From the NCBI GenBank assembly GCA_023382535.1, contig JAHDWA010000090.1, forward strand, positions 21,481 to 31,637: a DNA stretch of 10,157 nt, read 5' to 3'. Positions 333-9,954 of the stretch are shown in pieces; position 1 is the stretch's first letter; each line of letters begins with the position of its first letter. The position numbers and the translations under genes are program-made. Source of the DNA: Anaerolineae bacterium (lineage in GTDB: Bacteria > Chloroflexota > Anaerolineae > 4572-78 > J111). Below the pieces are notes generated by a model. It was not told where the DNA came from. It saw only the letters and a program-made list of their open reading frames with translations, and did not search any database.

Positions 333-1496
333 TTAAGAGGAGAGGTTGCCGAGCATGATCATCTCGTTGCTGGAACTGCCGCTGCTGTTCGCCGGCTCAA
401 CAGAAATGCCCATTGCCTCGTAAGAGCCAATAGCCGTATCTGCAGCCACCTGCAATAACCCTAAGCCTGAGGTATCTACGGTGAATTCACCGGCCCGTCT
501 TAGTTGGCCGTTTTGGACCAGCCAAAACTGATAGACCAGCCCGGGTTGAAGGGGAGGCAGGCCCGACACAATTAATACGGCTGTATCCTCGCCCGGATTG
601 GCGATGAGCTGGCCGTGAGCCTGCGGAATCGTTTCTGTTCCGGCAAGTTTCATCGCCTGGACATCGGGTGAAGTAACTTCAGCCATTACCGCGCGCTGGG
701 TTACAAGCTCCCGTCCCAGGTTGGTGTTCACAGCCTGAAGCTGCGCTACCTGGTTGTCGAGGGCAGCCAGTTGTTCGCGCTGGGTGGTCAATTCCTGTTG
801 CAGAGCCGCCACGGTTTCGGCTGAAACGGTAGGCTCCCCTGGTGGCTGAGATGCAGCCTGGTCGAGGGCAGCGAGCTGCTCCGCCTGGGCAGCTAACTCC
901 TGCTTGAGGGTACTGTTTTCGGCCTGGAGTGGTTCGACAGCCTCATTCAACTTGGCTAAAGCAGCTTTCTGCGCCCCCACTTCATTTTTGAGCGCCGCGT
1001 TTTCTTGCTGAAACGGCCCCATTCGCTCAAGCACGGCAGCCAGGGTTTCATTTTGCCGGGAAAGCTCGTGTTCGAAAGCCAGGTTTTGCTGTTGAACCTG
1101 GGATATTTGCCCATTCAGCAGAACGGCCCAGCTCCCGGCCAGTAAGGCCAGCAGCAGGCTCAACCCGACCAGGGCCGGCATAGCCCAGTTCCATTGAGGA
1201 GTTTGCCACAGCCGCTCCCAGAAACTCGGCCTACGAACCGCAGGGAATGGGGCGGGTTGGAGGCGAGGTTGGCGCTTCTCCGCGTTGATCCGATTCAGGA
1301 GCGCCAGCTTAACTTGCGGCGATGGCCTGGCCGGCCTGGCCGCGTAAGGCAAAGCCGAGGTAATTTGACAGGCCTCAACCAATCGCCCCTGAGCCGCCCT
1401 ATTTACGGCCACATAAGCCTCAACCTGGGCCTTTTCGTCATCGCTGAGCGCACCCAGGGCGTAGAAAGGGAACAGTTCTTCAAAGTGCTCGTCCAT
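333..1496 (-). CDS. RskA-type transmembrane anti-sigma factor with long coiled coil
   Basis: This is the likely membrane regulator that holds the co-encoded ECF sigma factor inactive. Residues 5-31 (LFPFYALGALSDDEKAQVEAYV) match the N-terminal helix of RskA-like anti-sigma factors; there is no HxxxCxxC zinc motif and only one cysteine (C43). A single membrane segment spans about 105-127, so residues 1-104 should be cytoplasmic and the rest extracytoplasmic. Residues 130-275 are a Gln/Ala/Leu/Glu-rich predicted coiled coil, and about 275-387 fit the RskA C-terminal domain (FWLVQNGQ, GEFTVDTSG, GISVEPANSS). At 387 residues it is longer than typical RskA proteins (around 230-250), the excess being the coiled coil. 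The ATG lies 5 bases after the sigma stop with only a weak purine-rich site, so translational coupling is likely. Release of the sigma factor by regulated proteolysis is known for RskA and inferred here. Confidence 0.88.
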   Translation of the reverse strand: MDEHFEELFPFYALGALSDDEKAQVEAYVAVNRAAQGRLVEACQITSALPYAARPARPSPQVKLALLNRINAEKRQPRLQPAPFPAVRRPSFWERLWQTPQWNWAMPALVGLSLLLALLAGSWAVLLNGQISQVQQQNLAFEHELSRQNETLAAVLERMGPFQQENAALKNEVGAQKAALAKLNEAVEPLQAENSTLKQELAAQAEQLAALDQAASQPPGEPTVSAETVAALQQELTTQREQLAALDNQVAQLQAVNTNLGRELVTQRAVMAEVTSPDVQAMKLAGTETIPQAHGQLIANPGEDTAVLIVSGLPPLQPGLVYQFWLVQNGQLRRAGEFTVDTSGLGLLQVAADTAIGSYEAMGISVEPANSSGSSSNEMIMLGNLSS

Positions 1497-1501
1497 GATG
1501 A

Positions 1502-2065
1502 TTACTCTTCAAATCCTTGCTCCTGCAAGGCCTCCCGCAGCTTTTGCAGCCCCAGCCGCGCCCGGGTATGGATTGTACCCAGGGGGACGCCCATCGCCTC
1601 GGCAATTTCTTGCCGGGTCATACCCCCAAAAAAAGCCATTTCGACTACCTCACGCTGGGCTTGAGGCAAGGCATTCAACGCCTGGCGCACCTGGAGGTGT
1701 TTCATAGCCGTCCAGGCTGATTCGGTCACATCTGCCTGGAGGTCAGGGCTGTCTTCAAGCTGCTGCTCTTCGTTACCATCAAAAATAGGCTGGGGCCGTG
1801 CCTTGCGCCGGCGCCACGTGTCAATGGATAGATTACGCGTAATCCCAAACAGCCAACCGGGAAAGGCCCCCTGCTGCTCGCAAAAAGAGGCGGCATTGCG
1901 CCACACTCGCCAAAAAGTTTCCTGAACCACCTCTTCGGCGCTGGGCCGGTCGCCCAGCATTTTGAGAGCCAGGCCCAACACCGCCGGAGCATACTGTTCG
2001 TAAAGCGTTTCCAGGGCAGCCGCATCCCCGTTGGCGACACGTTTCATCAGTTGTTCGTTATTCAA
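1502..2065 (-). CDS. ECF-family RNA polymerase sigma factor (SigK/RskA-associated type)
   Basis: A 187-residue two-domain sigma factor. Region 2 spans about 21-88 (LYEQYAPAVLGLALKMLG, then AEEVVQETFWRVWRN and the -10 recognition segment ending in DTWRRRKAR). Region 4 spans about 125-180, with the helix-turn-helix TRQEIAEAMGVPLGTIHTRA that would contact the -35 element. The size and lack of sigma regions 1 and 3 are typical of ECF factors. Pairing with a downstream RskA-like protein fits the SigK-type group. The start is a TTG (2063-2065): an AGAGG site ends 9 bases upstream, and this start gives the usual ECF N-terminus. An in-frame ATG at 2045-2047 has no ribosome-binding site and would remove six residues. 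Its target genes cannot be read from this window. Confidence 0.93.
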   Translation of the reverse strand: MNNEQLMKRVANGDAAALETLYEQYAPAVLGLALKMLGDRPSAEEVVQETFWRVWRNAASFCEQQGAFPGWLFGITRNLSIDTWRRRKARPQPIFDGNEEQQLEDSPDLQADVTESAWTAMKHLQVRQALNALPQAQREVVEMAFFGGMTRQEIAEAMGVPLGTIHTRARLGLQKLREALQEQGFEE

Positions 2066-3772: not shown

Positions 3773-4531
3773 TTAGTAAGGGTACAGATACGGTTGGTCG
3801 GGAACTTCTGTGGGGGTCACTTTATCGGCGCTGAGGATGGGCATCTGCTCACCGTCAAATTCGCCGACCTGAAAGCGCCCAGACACTTCGACCCACTGGT
3901 CACTGGCCAAACTGCCCGTGTCCGGCCAGTGGACAACCAGGCCCAGGGGAGCCGCATCGGCGGCGCAACAACTGATGGCGAAGCGGCTGACCATAAACTG
4001 ATCGCTGCCAAAGCGGTCATCCCGGTAGACGAAACCAATGACCCTGGCCTCCTGATCGGCAAAAGCAGCCGGATTCTGGGCGAGGCGGAAATCAATCAGC
4101 CAGTCGAGCACATTTTTCTCGCTGGCAGGCCGAGAAATAACTTGTGACGTTTTGGGCGAAGTGGCCGACGTTACCGAACCGACGCTAATTTCGCGATTGC
4201 TCATCGCGGCTGCGCCCAGCGGCTTGGGCGGGACCAGCAGTCCCAGGATCACCGGCAAGACCACCAGCAGCAGTCCAGCCCACGACAAGTTGCCGGGCTG
4301 GTGCCCGGCGTGGTTGTGATTATGGCTGTCGGCCTGCTCATGCTCGTCGGGTTGAGCCGGCTCGGCCCGGTAGCGATAGCTGACTGCTACGACGATAAAG
4401 CCAATTGCTGCCAGGAGAGTCAGCCAGGCAAAACGCTCGCTGATATAGTAGAACAGAGTGCCGTTATAAATGCGGCTGTAAAGAAACAACCCCAAAGCAA
4501 TCAACGCTAATCCCTTAAAACTTCCCTTCAT
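3773..4531 (-). CDS. DUF1980 / TIGR03943 (YcgQ-like) putative permease subunit
   Basis: A 252-residue protein with membrane segments at about 4-22, 33-51 and 82-101 and a soluble C-terminal domain (about 140-245). The hydrophilic loop at 63-77 holds five histidines (H64, H70, H72, H74, H77) with several acidic residues, a likely metal-binding patch. The C-terminal domain has the motif RFAISCCAADAAPLGLVVHW with adjacent C188-C189, typical of this family. These proteins are almost always encoded next to a YraQ/ArsP-type permease, as here, and are thought to act as its partner, but the substrate is not established. The ATG abuts the permease stop codon directly (TAAATG) and a GAGGTGG ribosome-binding site overlaps the end of the permease gene, so the two are translated together. 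Family assignment is firm; a metal role is inferred from the histidines and cysteines. Confidence 0.85.
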   Translation of the reverse strand: MKGSFKGLALIALGLFLYSRIYNGTLFYYISERFAWLTLLAAIGFIVVAVSYRYRAEPAQPDEHEQADSHNHNHAGHQPGNLSWAGLLLVVLPVILGLLVPPKPLGAAAMSNREISVGSVTSATSPKTSQVISRPASEKNVLDWLIDFRLAQNPAAFADQEARVIGFVYRDDRFGSDQFMVSRFAISCCAADAAPLGLVVHWPDTGSLASDQWVEVSGRFQVGEFDGEQMPILSADKVTPTEVPDQPYLYPY

Positions 4532-5608
4532 TTACCACCTCACGTTCAAACCCAGATAGACCGCAATGGCCATGGTCAGCATCAAAGGTAGAAGTATCAA
4601 ATAAACTACAGCGCGACGGCGAAAAACACCCAGGAACATCAGCGAGCTTTTAATATCAACCATCGGCCCGAAAACCAGAAAGGCCAGGATCGAAGCCGGG
4701 GTAAAGGTATTGACAAAAGCCAGGGCCAGAAAGGCATCTACCGTGGAGCAAACCGAGAGGACAAAGGCCAGCGCCATCATCATTAAAACCGACGACACCG
4801 GCCCGGCGCCTAGCGCCAGCAAGGCGGATTGAGGGACCAGTGTCTGCATGCCTGCCGCCAGCATCGAGCCGGCAATTAGGTAGCGGGCCATATCCAGAAA
4901 GTCGTCGCCGCCGGTTGCCAGGGCATGCCAGATTTGCTGCTGGCGGCTGGCGGCCTTCTGCGCATGGGGGTGGTGATGACAGTTCAGGTGCTCTTCAATC
5001 GTCTCCGGCAAGAGCACCTCCTGGGGTTTGGCCAGGTAGAAGAGGAAGCCGACGACGGCGGCAATCAGAAAGCTGAAGCCCAGGCGGCCCCACAGAATTG
5101 GACCCCAGCCAAAGGCCGCGTAGGTGCTGGCAATAACGACCGGATTGACCACCGGCGCCGCCAGTAGAAAGGCAATACCCATCGAGATAGGCAGCCCTTT
5201 CTGGTAAAGCCGACGCGTAACCGGCACCACGCCGCACTCGCACACCGGGAAGGCTATTCCCAGGGATGCGCCGGCCAAAGCGGCCAGGAGGGGCTGGCGC
5301 GGCACAAAGCGATCCAGGAGTTTCTGATCTACAAATACGGCGATAGAGCCGGAAACCAGCGAACCGGCCAGCAAAAAGGGCGCCGCTTCAATAAAAATGC
5401 TGAGGAAAATAGTGACAAAAGTTTGCAGCCGGTCGCTCAGCGGCACGGTCGTGTTGCGCAGGGAGCTTTCGCCGATGACCAGCACCAGGGCCAGGACCAG
5501 CAGGGCTAAAATCAAACGATAGGCCGGCTTAAATATAAACCGGCCGGAACGGCGGGGGGCAGCCTCGACAGCTTCAGCCGGAACCAGGGGAGTGTCCAGG
5601 GTTTTCAT
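4532..5608 (-). CDS. ArsP/YraQ-type (DUF318) multi-pass permease
   Basis: A 358-residue inner-membrane permease of the PF03773 family with about eight hydrophobic segments. Family motifs are visible: [15 protein letters not shown] at 120-134 (C123, C125), AAPVVNPVV at 150-158, [13 protein letters not shown] at 284-296 (C287), and [11 protein letters not shown] at 314-324. The central cytoplasmic loop carries a His/Cys cluster (H207, C210, H211-H213, H215) typical of a metal site. Some relatives export organoarsenicals, but no arsenic genes are nearby; pairing with DUF1980 and divergence from znuACB point instead to transition-metal or metal-complex transport. That is an inference, and direction and substrate are unknown. 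It is the first gene of the minus-strand operon. No Shine-Dalgarno precedes the ATG, which fits the almost leaderless transcript predicted from its promoter. Confidence 0.87.
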
Positions 5609-5618
5609 ACCATAAACG

Positions 5619-5646
5619 ATTATAGCGGGGAGTAATTCATTGTCAA
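5619..5646 (-). promoter_or_regulatory. Perfect-consensus promoter of the permease operon
   Basis: On the minus strand TTGACA (5641-5646) and TATAAT (5619-5624), both exact consensus hexamers, are separated by 16 bp. Transcription should begin around 5611-5613, only 3-5 bases before the permease ATG at 5606-5608. The mRNA would be effectively leaderless, consistent with the absence of a Shine-Dalgarno. Neither Fur-like box overlaps this promoter; the nearer one is centred about 95 bp upstream of the -35. Confidence 0.75.
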
Positions 5647-5703
5647 AGTCTTCAAGCGGGCAGTTGGGAAGGCTTCAGGGCTTCTTTACTGTCTTTAGGT
5701 CAT

Positions 5704-5731
5704 TTGACAATTAAACCTTTTGCCCTACAAT
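5704..5731 (+). promoter_or_regulatory. Upstream znu promoter (P1)
   Basis: TTGACA (5704-5709, exact consensus) and TACAAT (5726-5731, five of six) are separated by 16 bp. Start would be near 5738, inside Fur-like box 1, so a bound repressor would occlude initiation. The resulting znuA leader would be about 178 bases. Confidence 0.55.
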
Positions 5732-5733
5732 TT

Positions 5734-5748
5734 TGAGAATAAGTCTCA
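5734..5748. promoter_or_regulatory. Fur/Zur-family operator-like box 1
   Basis: TGAGAATAAGTCTCA has the 7-1-7 layout of Fur-family boxes: the half-sites TGAGAAT and TGAGACT (reverse complement of AGTCTCA) match at six of seven positions around one central base. It resembles the E. coli Fur core TGATAATNATTATCA. It starts two bases after the -10 of P1. Zur is the favoured regulator because a zinc importer lies downstream, but sequence alone cannot tell Zur from Fur. Confidence 0.65.
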
Positions 5749-5802
5749 TTTCTGAAATTAATAATGTACTCGGTAGAGACCAATAGGATTTTTGCATCTT
5801 AA

Positions 5803-5832
5803 TTGAGAATAAATCTCATTTATTTATATGAT
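5803..5832 (+). promoter_or_regulatory. Proximal znu promoter (P2)
   Basis: TTGAGA (5803-5808) and TATGAT (5827-5832, five of six) are 18 bp apart. Fur-like box 2 covers the -35 and half of the spacer. The start would fall at about 5839-5840, coinciding with an ATG at 5840. It is weaker than P1 by consensus match. Confidence 0.45.
5804..5818. promoter_or_regulatory. Fur/Zur-family operator-like box 2
   Basis: TGAGAATAAATCTCA has the same 7-1-7 form as box 1 with six of seven half-site positions matching. Over the extended 19 bases, TTGAGAATAARTCTCATTT, it differs from box 1 at a single position. The two start exactly 70 bp apart. It overlaps the -35 of P2, a repressing position. Confidence 0.65.
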
Positions 5833-5839
5833 CTCTAGC

Positions 5840-5905
5840 ATGGGTAATAAAGAAAACTCAGGCGTGCCAGAGGGCACTTTGATATGCCTGAATATCACCG
5901 TTTAA
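5840..5905 (+). CDS. Possible 21-codon upstream reading frame in the znuA leader
   Basis: An ATG at 5840 opens a 21-residue frame (MGNKENSGVPEGTLICLNIT, then V) ending in TAA at 5903-5905, just before the AAAGGGGG ribosome-binding site of znuA. It has no Shine-Dalgarno, but the predicted P2 start falls on or next to its A, so a P2 transcript could be leaderless. The peptide resembles nothing known to me, and a chance frame of this length is plausible. Confidence 0.2.
   Translation: MGNKENSGVPEGTLICLNITV
5860..5889 (+). promoter_or_regulatory. Hairpin in the znuA 5' leader
   Basis: The inner stem GTGCC-AGAG-GGCAC (5864-5877) and outer pairing AGGC (5860-5863) with GCCT (5886-5889) form a bulged hairpin about 25 bases before the znuA start. 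An alternative pairing GATAT/ATATC (5881-5885 and 5892-5896) would compete with the outer helix. No T-run follows, so it is not a terminator. It may affect leader stability or translation. Confidence 0.3.
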
Positions 5906-5915
5906 AGGGGGCAGA

Positions 5916-6884
5916 ATGAAATCGTTAAAAATAGGTTTAAAGCACACCTTGTTGCTAACGGCGCTGGTACTGCTGGTGGGCTGTGGCAGCAGCCAACCTG
6001 ATCAAGTAGCGGCCTCCTCGACGAGTGAGAAACTCAAAGTAGTTGCCACGTTTAGCATTTTGGGGGATTTAGTGCAAAATGTTGGCGGCGACAAAATTGA
6101 GCTGTACACCCTGGTTGGGCCGGGCAGCGACACGCACACCTTTGAGCCTAGCCCCAGCGACAGCGTGGCCCTGGTCGAGGCGAAGCTGATTTTTGAGAAC
6201 GGCCTTGGGCTTGAAACCTGGCTGGATAAGCTCTATACCGCCTCCGACTCCCAAGCTAAGCGGGTGGCTGTGACTGAAGGTCTTGAACCTATCGCTATGG
6301 CCGAAGGCGATCACGAGGAGCATGGCGCGGTTGACGAACATGGGCACGGCGAGTTTGATCCGCATGTCTGGCAGGATGTGGCCAATGTAATCCACGAGGT
6401 GGAGGGCATCCGTGATGCCCTGGTCGAAGCGGACCCGGCCGGCGCCAAAACCTACCAGGCCAATGCCGAGACTTATCTAGGCCAGTTGAAAGAACTTGAT
6501 GCGTGGGTGATTGCGGAAGTTGAAAAATTGCCCAAAGGCCGCCGTAAACTGGTCACTTCACACGACACATTTGGTTATTTTGCCCGCCGCTATGGTTTTG
6601 ATATGGTGGGCAGCGGCCTGGGCTCGACTACGGAGGCAGGCGATCCCTCTGCCACGCAATTGGTCAGCCTGGTTGAAGAAATCAAAGGGGCCGGGGTCCT
6701 GGTTATCTTTGTCGAAAATGTTTCCAATCCCAGGTTGATGGAACAGATCGCTGCCGAGGCCGGGGTAACGCTTGGCCCGGCCTTATACACCGATGCCCTG
6801 ACCGAGCCGGGCAGCGATGGTGATACCTATATCAGGATGATGCGTCACAATGTTACTGTCATAGTAATGGCGTTGAGTCAGTAA
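5916..6884 (+). CDS. znuA: Zinc-binding lipoprotein of the ZnuABC importer (cluster A-I solute-binding protein)
   Basis: A 322-residue metal-binding lipoprotein that captures Zn outside the membrane and delivers it to the ABC permease. A lipoprotein signal ends in LVGC with lipidated C23. The mature protein shows the cluster A-I signature: VVATFSILGDLVQNVGGD at 42-59, metal ligand H74 (DTHTFEPSPSD), H150 (DPHVWQD), H216 (TSHDTFGYFARRYG), and D293 (LYTDAL). A histidine at the third ligand is the zinc-type arrangement (as in ZnuA and TroA); Mn-type PsaA has glutamate there. The segment 132-148 between ligands one and two is His/Asp/Glu-rich (H133, H136, H142, H144), another zinc-uptake hallmark. 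The start is supported by an AAAGGGGG site 4 bases upstream. It is the first gene of a znuA-znuC-znuB cluster under the two Fur-like boxes. A Mn role is less likely but not excluded. Confidence 0.92.
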   Translation: MKSLKIGLKHTLLLTALVLLVGCGSSQPDQVAASSTSEKLKVVATFSILGDLVQNVGGDKIELYTLVGPGSDTHTFEPSPSDSVALVEAKLIFENGLGLETWLDKLYTASDSQAKRVAVTEGLEPIAMAEGDHEEHGAVDEHGHGEFDPHVWQDVANVIHEVEGIRDALVEADPAGAKTYQANAETYLGQLKELDAWVIAEVEKLPKGRRKLVTSHDTFGYFARRYGFDMVGSGLGSTTEAGDPSATQLVSLVEEIKGAGVLVIFVENVSNPRLMEQIAAEAGVTLGPALYTDALTEPGSDGDTYIRMMRHNVTVIVMALSQ

Positions 6885-7026: not shown

Positions 7027-7800
7027 GTGAGCCGACCACGTTTTCCTTATAATCGCCAGGGGTTTGCCGAGCCGATCCCGGACGCGCCTGCCCTGGAAGC
7101 TGTCAATGTCAGTGCCGGATACCCCGACGGCAGTAGTGCGGCCCTGCGCGGAGTTAGTCTGCGCGTGCCGGTGGGAACGAAGGTGGCTCTGGTGGGGCCA
7201 AACGGCGCAGGCAAATCAACCTTGCTCAAAGCGGCGGCAGGGTTGCTGCCGGTGGAAGGGGGCGAACTGCGTCTTTCCGGCTGGCCGGTGGGGGTATGCC
7301 GGCAGCGGGTTGCCTATCTGCCCCAGCGCAGCGAGATAGACTGGCGTTTTCCCATTAATGTCCGCCGGCTGGTGCTGACCGGGCGCTACATTCACCTGGG
7401 CTGGTTAAAACGTCCGCATGCCCATGATAAACATCTGGTTGAGCAGGTTCTGGACCGATTAGGGCTGAGCCATCTGGCAGAACGGCAGATTAGCCAACTT
7501 TCGGGCGGCCAACAGCAGCGGGCACTGCTGGCCCGGGCGCTGGTGCAAGAGGCCGAACTGCTTCTGCTCGACGAACCTCTGAATGCCGTAGACGCCGAAA
7601 CCCGCACGGTGATCACCGAGGTGCTGGCCGAACTCCAGCAGCAGGGCAAAACGGTGCTCGTGGCCACGCACGACCTGGGACGGCTGGAGACGGACTTCGA
7701 CGGCGCGCTCTACCTGAACGAGGGCCGGGAAGTCCCCGCTCCACCGGGGGCCTTTGTCGGCTTGCAGGTAGGCCGGGAGGCGGCATGGGAAGCTGGCTGA
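7027..7800 (+). CDS. znuC: Zinc ABC transporter ATP-binding protein
   Basis: A 257-residue ATPase that powers zinc import on the cytoplasmic face. All ABC motifs are intact: Walker A GPNGAGKST at 57-65, Q-loop Q100, signature LSGGQQQR at 158-165, Walker B LLLLDEP at 178-184, D-loop near 186-189, and H-loop H215 (ATHD). The segment YLPQRSEIDWRFPINV at 97-112 followed by LTGRY is characteristic of the Zn/Mn ABC subfamily. The start is a GTG at 7027 with no clear ribosome-binding site; it gives about 20 residues before the ABC fold begins, and no better in-frame start is seen. The gap from znuA is 142 bp and holds a long inverted repeat, so znuCB expression may differ from znuA. The last 16 bases overlap the permease gene. 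Confidence 0.92.
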   Translation: MSRPRFPYNRQGFAEPIPDAPALEAVNVSAGYPDGSSAALRGVSLRVPVGTKVALVGPNGAGKSTLLKAAAGLLPVEGGELRLSGWPVGVCRQRVAYLPQRSEIDWRFPINVRRLVLTGRYIHLGWLKRPHAHDKHLVEQVLDRLGLSHLAERQISQLSGGQQQRALLARALVQEAELLLLDEPLNAVDAETRTVITEVLAELQQQGKTVLVATHDLGRLETDFDGALYLNEGREVPAPPGAFVGLQVGREAAWEAG

Positions 7801-8615
7801 TTGAACCCCTGGAGTATGCCTTTATGCGCTCAGGCATGCTGGCCGTCCTGCTGGTAGGATTGACCTGCGCCACGCTGGGCGTGTATGTGGTGCTGCGGCA
7901 CATGGCTTTTATCGGCGATGCCCTGGCCCATACCGTTCTTCCCGGCCTGGTGGTGGCCTACCTCAATAGCTGGAACCTGTTTGGCGGCGCAGTGGTGGCC
8001 GGACTGCTCACTGCTCTGGGAATTGGCTGGCTCTCCCGCCGGCGAGAGGTCCGCGAAGATACGGCCATCGGTATCCTCTTTACCGGGATGTTTGCTTTGG
8101 GCATTTTGCTCATCAGCACGGTCCGCTCCTTTCGCGACCTGTCACATATCCTCTTTGGCGATATCCTTGGCGTGACCCCCACCGACCTGGCTCTGATTGC
8201 CGGGGTGGCCGTGCTGGTCCTGCTGGTCCTGACCCTTTTTCACAAAGAGCTGGAACTGACCTCGTTTGATCCCATCCACGCCCAAGTGATTGGTCTGCGC
8301 GCGGATGTGGTGCGCTACGGGCTGCTGATGCTGCTGGCCTTGACAGTGGTCGTCGGCATTCAAGCCGTAGGGGTGGTGCTGACGAATGCTCTGCTCATCA
8401 CCCCGGCCGCCACGGCGGCCCTCCTCACCCACCGACTGCCCCGCATGATGGTCATCGCGGCGCTTGTGGCGATGGTTTCGGGCCTGGTTGGGCTGTATGC
8501 TTCATACTATTTCAGCGTCTCCTCCGGCGCGGCGATTGTCTTAACCTGTACCGCTTGTTTTGGGCTGGCCTGGCTGGGACAAATGCTCCACCAGCGGCTG
8601 ACCGGTAACTACTGA
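7785..8615 (+). CDS. znuB: Zinc ABC transporter permease (ABC-3 family)
   Basis: A 276-residue inner-membrane permease of the PF00950 family with about eight hydrophobic segments, forming the translocation channel. Family features visible are the N-terminal FIGDALAHTVLPG at 42-54, LFGDILGVTPTDL at 123-135, LLITPAATAALLT at 203-215, and SGLVGLYASYYFSVSSGAA at 232-250. The ATG lies 16 bases inside the 3' end of the ATPase gene, with GGGAGG (7775-7780) four bases upstream, so the two are co-translated. With the solute-binding protein and ATPase it completes the importer. No terminator is visible after it; the next gene has its own promoter. Substrate (Zn rather than Mn) is inherited from the ligand set of the binding protein. 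Confidence 0.92.
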   Translation: MGSWLIEPLEYAFMRSGMLAVLLVGLTCATLGVYVVLRHMAFIGDALAHTVLPGLVVAYLNSWNLFGGAVVAGLLTALGIGWLSRRREVREDTAIGILFTGMFALGILLISTVRSFRDLSHILFGDILGVTPTDLALIAGVAVLVLLVLTLFHKELELTSFDPIHAQVIGLRADVVRYGLLMLLALTVVVGIQAVGVVLTNALLITPAATAALLTHRLPRMMVIAALVAMVSGLVGLYASYYFSVSSGAAIVLTCTACFGLAWLGQMLHQRLTGNY

Positions 8616-8715: not shown

Positions 8716-9162
8716 ATGCTGCATCAAAAGATCCTGACGGGGTGGATCAAAAAGCTATTCTACGGCTGGCTTATTTTTTGTCTGGGGGGAGTGGGTTCGC
8801 TGGCCTATTTTGATGGTTTTGCGCCCGGGCACGAGCATGGACAGCATCCTTATCACTTGAGTGTTTTTGATGAGGCAACCCATGCTCACAATCCTTTGCC
8901 ACCCCTGTCTGAGGACCTGGCCGAGGAAATACGCTTCTGGCTGGTCAGCCACCTCAATCCCCTAACCAATATTCTCCGTACTGCTCAAAATTTTGTACCC
9001 GGTTTTTCCTCATTTTTCGCCTCAGGTTTGGGTGATGGTTATATTTTGATGGCAACTCGCTTCAAGATTTTTCACCTGCCTGCCCTCTTTGATGTGGTTG
9101 CGCTGGCTGCCCTCAACGGGCGTTCGGCATGGCTGGTCCCTCTCGATAAACCCCCCATTTGA
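8716..9162 (+). CDS. Small His-rich membrane-anchored or exported protein, unknown function
   Basis: I do not recognise this 148-residue protein. It has one N-terminal hydrophobic segment (about 14-31) preceded by lysines, so it is an uncleaved anchor or a signal sequence with the rest outside the membrane. Right after it, residues 39-58 contain six histidines (H39, H41, H44, H47, H56, H58) with two acidic residues, a plausible metal-binding tail. The middle (64-90) is likely helical and the C-terminus (118-148) partly hydrophobic. It contains a single cysteine, C22, inside the hydrophobic segment. It sits between the zinc importer and copper-chaperone genes and has its own promoter. A purine-rich GGGGCGGGGAA lies 11 bases upstream of the ATG. 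The gene is supported by promoter, start context and coding-like composition; a metal-scavenging role is inferred from position and histidines only. Confidence 0.72.
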   Translation: MLHQKILTGWIKKLFYGWLIFCLGGVGSLAYFDGFAPGHEHGQHPYHLSVFDEATHAHNPLPPLSEDLAEEIRFWLVSHLNPLTNILRTAQNFVPGFSSFFASGLGDGYILMATRFKIFHLPALFDVVALAALNGRSAWLVPLDKPPI

Positions 9163-9333: not shown

Positions 9334-9954
9334 ATGGTTCTTCCGAAAGGCGCAAACTTTGCTTTGCTGCTTCTTTTGCTGGGATTGGCTGTCGTCGGCG
9401 GGGGCTGCCAAACTTTTGCCTCCGCCTACGAATACAAAGGGTCCGTGCTGGAGCCGCCTGCTCCCCTGCCCGATTTTGAACTCATGGCTGCTACCGGCCA
9501 ACCCTTTCGCCTAAGCCATGTTAAAGGCGACATCGTCCTGATATATTTCGGCTACACCTTTTGCCCCGATGTCTGCCCCTTGACCCTGGCGAATGTCAGG
9601 CAGGCGTTAAATGGGCTTGAGCAGGGCCGGGAGCGGGTGCATGTTGTCTTTGTCTCGGTTGACCCGGAGCGCGACACCCCCCAAGTCCTGGGGCGTTATC
9701 TGAAGGCTTTCGACCCCGGTTTTATCGGCCTGACCGATGATTTCGAGAAGGTCAAAGAGGTCATGAAACCCTACGGCGCTTTTGCCGAAAAAGAAACGGT
9801 GACCGGCTCTACGGCCGGCTACCTGGTCAATCACAGCGCGCGCTTATACCTGGTCACTCCTGACCAAAAATTGCTCTTGATGTATCCTTTTGGCTTTAAA
9901 GCTGAAGATCTGCGGAGCGACCTGGCCTATCTGTTAAGCCAGGAAAATTCATGA
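9334..9954 (+). CDS. Sco1/SenC-family copper-binding lipoprotein
   Basis: A 206-residue thioredoxin-fold protein that binds copper outside the membrane and helps build the CuA centre of cytochrome c oxidase. The ligands are present: C77 and C81 in TFCPDVCP and the distal H167 in YLVNHSARLYLV. Other family motifs are LPDFELMAATGQPF at 45-58, IYFGYTFCPDVCP, and VSVDPERDTPQVL at 107-119. An N-terminal hydrophobic stretch ends in VVGGGC (C25), a probable lipoprotein site although glycine instead of leucine at -3 is atypical. The start is fixed by GCAGGAG 6 bases upstream of ATG 9334. It is followed after 24 bp by a PCuAC gene, a classic partnership in CuA assembly. A terminal oxidase itself is not in the window. 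A weak TTGCTT/TACGAT pair (9276-9305) could be its promoter. Confidence 0.93.
   Translation: MVLPKGANFALLLLLLGLAVVGGGCQTFASAYEYKGSVLEPPAPLPDFELMAATGQPFRLSHVKGDIVLIYFGYTFCPDVCPLTLANVRQALNGLEQGRERVHVVFVSVDPERDTPQVLGRYLKAFDPGFIGLTDDFEKVKEVMKPYGAFAEKETVTGSTAGYLVNHSARLYLVTPDQKLLLMYPFGFKAEDLRSDLAYLLSQENS

Follow-up and report, generated by a model that had tools for sequence, protein, structure and literature searches.

The window analysed here, a stretch of 10,157 nucleotides from an Anaerolineae bacterium, carries on its minus strand an ECF sigma and anti-sigma pair, a gene for a PD40 protein, DUF1980 and yraQ, and on its plus strand znuA, znuC, znuB, an open reading frame (ORF) of 148 aa and SCO1. 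The features around the yraQ–znuA gap are collected in Table 1. AztA, AztB and AztC are the best NCBIfam models for the three transporter subunits, though each of the scores lies below the cut-off of its model. The nearest solved relatives of the substrate-binding protein are metal-binding or periplasmic by description, with Mn binders next. The likely substrate of the importer is zinc. YraQ itself matches the SO_0444 Cu/Zn efflux family weakly (84.8 bits, cut-off 300). A plasmid search found nothing.

Table 1 Features of the window on either side of the yraQ–znuA gap, in window positions
Feature	Position	Strand	Details
DUF1980/TIGR03943 permease partner	3773–4531	−	Pfam DUF1980; TIGR03943 173 bits, above cut-off
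yraQ, ArsP_1 permease, divergent neighbour	4532–5608	−	Pfam ArsP_1 223 bits
Predicted divergent yraQ promoter, TTGACA-N16-TATAAT	5619–5646	−	12/12 consensus matches; kept in L001 and L002
P1, predicted znuA promoter, TTGACA-N16-TACAAT	5704–5731	+	11/12 consensus matches
Box 1 (O1) TGAGAATAAGTCTCA, candidate Zur operator	5734–5748	.	exact match; kept in L001 and L002
P2 of the sequence-only reading, TTGAGA-N18-TATGAT	5803–5832	+	10/12 consensus matches
Box 2 (O2) TGAGAATAAATCTCA, candidate second Zur operator	5804–5818	.	exact match; kept in L001 and L002
znuA, aztC-like metal-binding protein	5916–6884	+	Pfam ZnuA 294 bits; best NCBIfam AztC 309 bits, cut-off 350
znuC, aztA-like ATPase	7027–7800	+	Pfam ABC_tran; best NCBIfam AztA 209 bits, cut-off 220
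znuB, aztB-like permease	7785–8615	+	Pfam ABC-3; best NCBIfam AztB 238 bits, cut-off 280

The 307-bp gap between yraQ and znuA holds both boxes, 70 bp apart and exactly where a sequence-only reading of the window had placed them. Each is an imperfect 7-1-7 palindrome with six of its seven positions paired and, again as that reading had it, boxes and flanks are identical at 18 of 19 bases over TTGAGAATAARTCTCATTT (5733–5751 against 5803–5821). The two boxes are the only exact occurrences of TGAGA-N5-TCTCA within the window. At least one such pattern arose in 10 of 2000 dinucleotide-shuffled windows and two arose in none of them; shuffling the 307-bp intergenic region gave one in 8 of 20,000 cases and two in 0 of 20,000. 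The pair far exceeds chance, and the boxes are real. General 7-1-7 palindromes are not enriched in the window (17 against a shuffle mean of 16.6), so that the signal resides in the particular TGAGA-N5-TCTCA sequence. An Rfam search of positions 5600–5930 returned no family. A weak, terminator-like hairpin lies at 5864–5877 (one found against 0.4 expected).

A scan of genome contigs, with the window ZnuA aligned with 19 of the 120 homologues listed, gave 80 loci. The two best are L001 (genome G001, MAG H5_CFX7), whose ZnuA is 82% identical to that of the window, and L002 (G002, H5_CFX5; 69%). Both boxes are kept upstream of these two orthologues, conservation on which the sequence-only reading had staked its proposal, and together with P1 and the yraQ promoter they make up the clearest conserved blocks of the gap. 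Also kept beside the znu region at both loci is the ECF sigma and RskA-type anti-sigma pair (window 333–2065). The 148-aa ORF (8716–9162), which lies between znuB and SCO1 and has clustered histidines, finds no match in Pfam or NCBIfam; its identity is 74% in L001 and 61% in L002, where a second match has 33%. The 400 bp before the ZnuA match were scanned at 66 of the 80 loci, the 14 omitted being mostly those where the match started inside the protein. Three loci from further Anaerolineae (L013, L015 and L017) have a single TGAGAATC[AG]TTCTCA and a Fur-family gene divergent from znuA, and the remaining 61 comprise nine with other palindromes and 52 in which none passed the thresholds. Another palindrome, in most cases resembling TGATAGTNRCTATCA, precedes znuA at L032, L033, L034, L035, L038 and L057; its carriers are Roseiflexaceae, a MAG labelled Thermoflexus and another Chloroflexi MAG, and it is perhaps another Zur motif.

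The G001 locus has lost both yraQ and DUF1980, with the two boxes intact (one MAG contig, and this locus only). A match to YraQ residues 1–75 (56% identity) overlaps there a match to PD40 residues 158–491, in one frame by coordinates. An in-frame-looking deletion (L001:8513–9682) appears to join the start of yraQ to the later PD40 gene, and the yraQ promoter remains. This natural loss separates the two divergent operons and, since the boxes were kept without the permease genes, selection on them would come from znu. It weighs against a bidirectional switch in which zinc-loaded Zur, besides repressing znu, would act on the divergent yraQ–DUF1980 permease too, perhaps as an activator. Such a switch would fit the gene order, yraQ–DUF1980 diverging from znuA in the window and in G002 and from zur in G160 and G159 (L206), and it has precedents in B. 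anthracis, where Zur is reported to bind two boxes before an ArsP_1 permease with activation proposed (PMC6336718), and in S. coelicolor, where an exporter gene is described as induced by Zur (PMC5472717). In the window, however, the boxes begin at distances of ~88 and ~158 bp from the yraQ −35, on its upstream side, and lie over no predicted element of the yraQ promoter, and we regard control in both directions as possible but rather unlikely.

The yraQ promoter is covered by neither box. Its −10 ends 10 nt before the ATG (window 5606–5646), as it does in L001 and L002, and from this short distance the yraQ mRNA should be nearly leaderless. On the znu side, P1 ends 2 nt before box 1, which bears out the view that this box abuts the −10, and both its −35 and its −10 are kept in L001 and L002. 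With the start of transcription placed from the −10, box 1 is predicted to cover roughly −5 to +10 relative to P1, and box 2 roughly +66 to +80. In 6 of the 13 regions inspected (the window, G001, G002, G106, G156 and G159), a TTGACA is followed, at a spacing of 16 or 17, by a hexamer that resembles a −10 and stands 0–2 nt before box 1; G155 has a P1-like layout with a gap of 3–5 nt to the box, and the remaining six are without it. Lying 2 nt behind the −10 of a near-consensus and recurring promoter, box 1 should therefore block initiation.

The sequence-only reading had gone further and set each box on a znu promoter of its own, box 2 over the −35 of P2. The letters of P2 are indeed present in the window, and in G160 a TATAAT abuts box 2, but no −35 was found there. 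Neither the spacing nor the −10 of P2 is conserved in the closest genomes, the spacing being 14 in G001 and no −10 being seen in G002. Promoter-like sites number three against 1.0 expected from shuffles, so that one weak extra is unremarkable. P2 is probably not a real promoter, and the idea of a separate znuA promoter under each box, P1 and P2, fails in that the conserved promoter is found at box 1 only; we hold it to be quite improbable. Lying ~66 bp inside the predicted transcript, box 2 is more plausibly an auxiliary operator or one that acts as a road-block.

The motif was then followed through a sample of 25 genomes of the order, with the strict pattern WTGAGAN5TCTCAW and its reversed form as control. 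The strict pattern has 34 sites in 17 of these genomes against 11 for the reversed pattern. Fifteen of the 34, tallied by eye, lie within ~220 bp before zur-clade, znuA or znuC genes (three in G160, two each in G001, G163 and G168, and one each in G002, G017, G156, G162, G159 and G145), which agrees with the predicted enrichment upstream of znu and zur. One more precedes a SLAC1/TDT transporter gene that itself precedes znuA (G155), two lie further along the znu cluster of G160, and the other 16 fall inside script-called ORFs, two of them short and doubtful; one of these ORF-internal sites also lies 98 bp upstream of a 387-aa ORF (G157, L231). Boxes before ribosomal-protein paralogues, which had likewise been anticipated, were not seen among the 34 strict sites, part of whose neighbours were named. 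The G160 cluster goes on with a DUF5132 protein and a heavy-metal P-type ATPase (L213:6990–11029) and has its two further boxes at 9731 and 10477. In G155, two boxes 28 bp apart stand before the SLAC1/TDT-family gene (L224:1739–2960).

The motif of the order is ATTGAGA-N5-TCTCAAT, with GAGA and TCTC near-invariant and the five inner bases loosely A/T-rich. It has the marks of a Zur box, namely a Fur-family-type palindrome in the promoters of putative zinc-uptake genes, conserved with the importer genes. We scored upstream regions with a matrix from which the tested genome was omitted (the window, G001 and G002 being omitted together), with 400 shuffles per region. The best site lies above all 400 shuffles in 22 of the 27 regions, which were partly chosen for pattern matches (G163, G162, G159, G168, G145 and the tdt region of G155) and scored from pattern-picked training sites; the five that fall short are the znuA regions of G017, G161 and G152 and the zur regions of G001 and G002. 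Box 2 scores 27.1 against a shuffle maximum of 15.5, and box 1, as second-best site, 23.6 against a shuffle maximum of 7.6 for second-best sites. Among the 13 order genomes picked by the ZnuA search, nine have a box at znuA or at a zur just before znuA, whilst no box was found in three (G152, G154 and G161) and the upstream region of G158 was unreadable.

Two boxes 57–76 bp apart recur in 7 of the 14 znuA regions scored, at spacings of 70 bp in the window, 68 in G001, 60 in G002, 76 in G106, 74 in G156, 57 in G160 and 64 in G159. G163 has two boxes at 31 bp, the znuA regions of G168, G157 and G155 have one each, and those of G017, G161 and G152 have none. This recurrence lends the proposal of a double lock on znu partial support; its second promoter finds none, the conserved promoter being that at box 1. 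Paired boxes might also suggest a loop, both being bridged by one Zur assembly. The seven spacings, however, amount to 5.4 to 7.2 helical turns and share no common phase, so that a fixed helical phase between the boxes is ruled out and a loop of this kind seems very improbable.

Fur-family genes are found twice each in G001 and G002 (PF01475, above cut-off). A quick tree of 70 rows (72 Fur-family rows, of which two were dropped), built on few columns and weak at its deep forks, places L100 of G001 and L099 of G002 in a clade of 14 rows with an SH-aLRT of 96, eight of whose 14 members lie 1.2 kb or less from znuA. The other two genes, L098 of G001 and L097 of G002, group with proteins not seen beside znu. 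The four cysteines of the structural CxxC motifs are present in all 14 members of the first, or zur, clade, as is a histidine aligned with His37 of PerR. Of the 12 order genomes with a zur-clade gene, 8 have a box before it; the genes of G001, G002 and G126 have no box, the first two not being beside znu. In G160 the arrangement DUF1980–yraQ divergent from zur–znuABC is that of the window plus zur, with one box before zur and two before znuA. G159 has, between yraQ and zur, a box variant with its arms six bases apart, TTGAGA-N6-TCTCAA (L206:1426–1443), which lies behind TTGACA...CATAAT.

The name Zur for this clade is likely and rests on gene neighbourhood and boxes. Against the curated NCBIfam Zur model, which is of E. 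coli type, L100 scores 34.7 bits (cut-off 167), and for that reason it is not filed as an E. coli-type Zur; the NCBIfam models for Fur and for PerR come closer to it than that for E. coli Zur, though every score falls well short of its cut-off. Its sister L098 outscores it on the same Zur model (54.6 against 34.7 bits) and against solved Zurs such as 2o03 (65.5 against 47.5), and is by plain similarity nearer than L100 to known Zurs and known Furs alike. An arginine that most members of the clade have before ATVYR was considered as the cause of the TGAGA half-site and rejected, since it is absent in Thermoflexales-type proteins beside the same half-site.

A looser search was made in a class sample of 150 genomes, with the pattern TGAGAATNATTCTCA at up to one mismatch and its reversed form as control. 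It gave 49 sites in 42 genomes against two for the reversed pattern. Twelve of the 49 lie near znuA or a Fur-family gene (two of the three in G001 and ten of the 46 elsewhere), and two of those ten are at Fur-family genes without a zur assignment (L108 and L139); many other sites are within ORFs. Three one-mismatch sites precede iron genes, FTR1 (L124), feoAB (L128) and feoB (L134), and all three read TGCGAAT on one side. Seven more neighbours of class sites were scanned and showed no clear metal gene, one being a general solute-binding protein. Given the iron genes behind class sites, the loose pattern is probably, at the level of the class, a mixture of at least two kinds of Fur-family site, and TGCGAAT-N-ATTCTCA or its reverse is perhaps an iron-regulator motif, a near neighbour of the zinc motif. 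For the canonical Fur box TGATAATNATTATCA there is no enrichment, with 10 sites in six genomes and 11 for the reversed control. Sites with two mismatches to TGAGAATNATTCTCA (20 in G001 and 26 in G002) were tried as a motif list. Nine of them were examined in G001 and 11 in G002, znu sites included, and 13 of the 16 non-znu sites lay inside a called ORF, so that the list was dropped for TGAGA-N5-TCTCA. A 17-mer identical in G001 and G002 (L208 and L210) was likewise set aside as an operator; it lies inside a glycosyltransferase-like gene, is similar in G145 (L232) and is, from its place within the gene, ascribed to coding conservation.

The iron genes behind class sites raise the question of whether it is the sister protein, of iron-Fur or PerR type (L098 in G001), that binds the boxes, with an importer that answers to iron or peroxide or carries Mn or Fe. 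TGAGAAT-N-ATTCTCA has been published as the E. faecalis Fur box and is close to the X. campestris Fur consensus, and the higher scores of L098 than of L100 against known Zurs point the same way. The strict sites of the order, on the other hand, accompany znu genes and members of the zur clade, and the search turned up none beside a gene of the sister clade. As to the metal, solved relatives of the substrate-binding protein include both Mn and Fe binders and NCBIfam MntC ranks second for it, but behind AztC, the zinc models of the AztABC set being best for all three subunits, if below cut-off. We consider it unlikely that the sister protein is the regulator.

We therefore return to Zur. The comparison supports the clade, the layout of the promoter and a pair of conserved boxes associated with znu and zur-clade genes; from it we infer that Zur binds the boxes, that it does so with zinc and thereby represses, and what box 2 does. 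The boxes would be two operators for the zinc-sensing Fur-family repressor Zur, a reading to which we give a probability of roughly 80%. Zur, already named as regulator by the sequence-only reading, is the best candidate because the boxes precede znu and zur-clade genes and because a Fur-family protein of the close relatives falls in the znu-adjacent Zur clade. Zinc-loaded Zur dimers on box 1, over the predicted start of transcription from P1, would prevent promoter opening by RNA polymerase. Further repression would come from box 2, ~66 bp inside the transcript, either as a second operator or as a road-block to polymerases that had escaped. When zinc falls, Zur would lose its zinc and leave both boxes, and znuABC would be made. 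That this is a switch of the whole order, with a block of initiation by one Zur at the transcription start and a road-block by a second 57–76 bp into the transcript, run by a Zur with a Cys/His sensing site of the cyanobacterial SynZur type, is conceivable but doubtful. For Anaerolineae, which are largely uncultured, the motif and the likely Zur protein would allow zinc regulons to be predicted from their sequences. Since the paired boxes vary in helical spacing, they offer a way to test whether twin Zur boxes act as backup or by a loop.

Zur in Anaerolineae is the subject of no paper among the matches listed in our literature search, and those parts of PMC3087516 that name Zur and Chloroflexi give no Chloroflexi Zur motif. 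The motif may already be contained in RegPrecise, which is described as having a Chloroflexi collection and a Zur collection (PMC3840689). A search for the perfect palindromes found them in PMC6056675, PMC1790865 and a sesame paper only. The first two concern the Fur boxes of Enterococcus faecalis and Xanthomonas campestris (AATGAgAATcATTctCATT), which have, as here, a TGAGAAT half-site and a 7-1-7 core (PMC1790865, PMC6056675). They belong to Fur and iron genes, whereas in the present order the five bases between the arms are free and strict sites are found at zinc genes. Given these iron-Fur boxes and the few class one-mismatch sites before iron genes, the suggestion that TGAGAAT is a lineage-specific Zur half-site is not supported in that form, and the part that is nearly invariant in the order is TGAGA...TCTCA.

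As to the protein, the sensing-site cysteine and the C-terminal histidine of cyanobacterial SynZur (PMC9337993), placed by their spacing from the structural cysteines, each have a counterpart in 13 of the 14 zur-clade members and in none of the 10 members of the sister clade. The position of Asp77 of SynZur is Gly in 13 of the 14, and the cysteine is found outside the zur clade too (8 of 25 other znu-adjacent rows and 8 of 21 other rows). With one ligand missing and the cysteine in other groups, a SynZur-type sensing site in the zur clade is only a candidate.

As to the arrangement, znuA of S. coelicolor and yciC of B. subtilis are reported to have at least two Zur boxes at one promoter, the downstream box being thought a backup for tighter repression (PMC6103462). 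There the boxes lie over the −35 and −10, whereas here box 1 is just behind the −10 and box 2 would be ~66 bp into the transcript; motif and phylum also differ. In B. anthracis, BAS1632, which encodes an ArsP_1 permease, and yciC are described with two Zur boxes each (PMC6336718), so that a permease of this family is tied to Zur boxes as it is here; those boxes, unlike ours, follow a 9-1-9 motif of the Bacillus kind and lie upstream of the permease's own −35. Twin Zur boxes and TGAGAAT half-sites being already known, the finding is a new instance with a twist in the location of box 2, most likely an ordinary and well-founded kind of switch in a little-studied lineage, the largely uncultured Anaerolineae.
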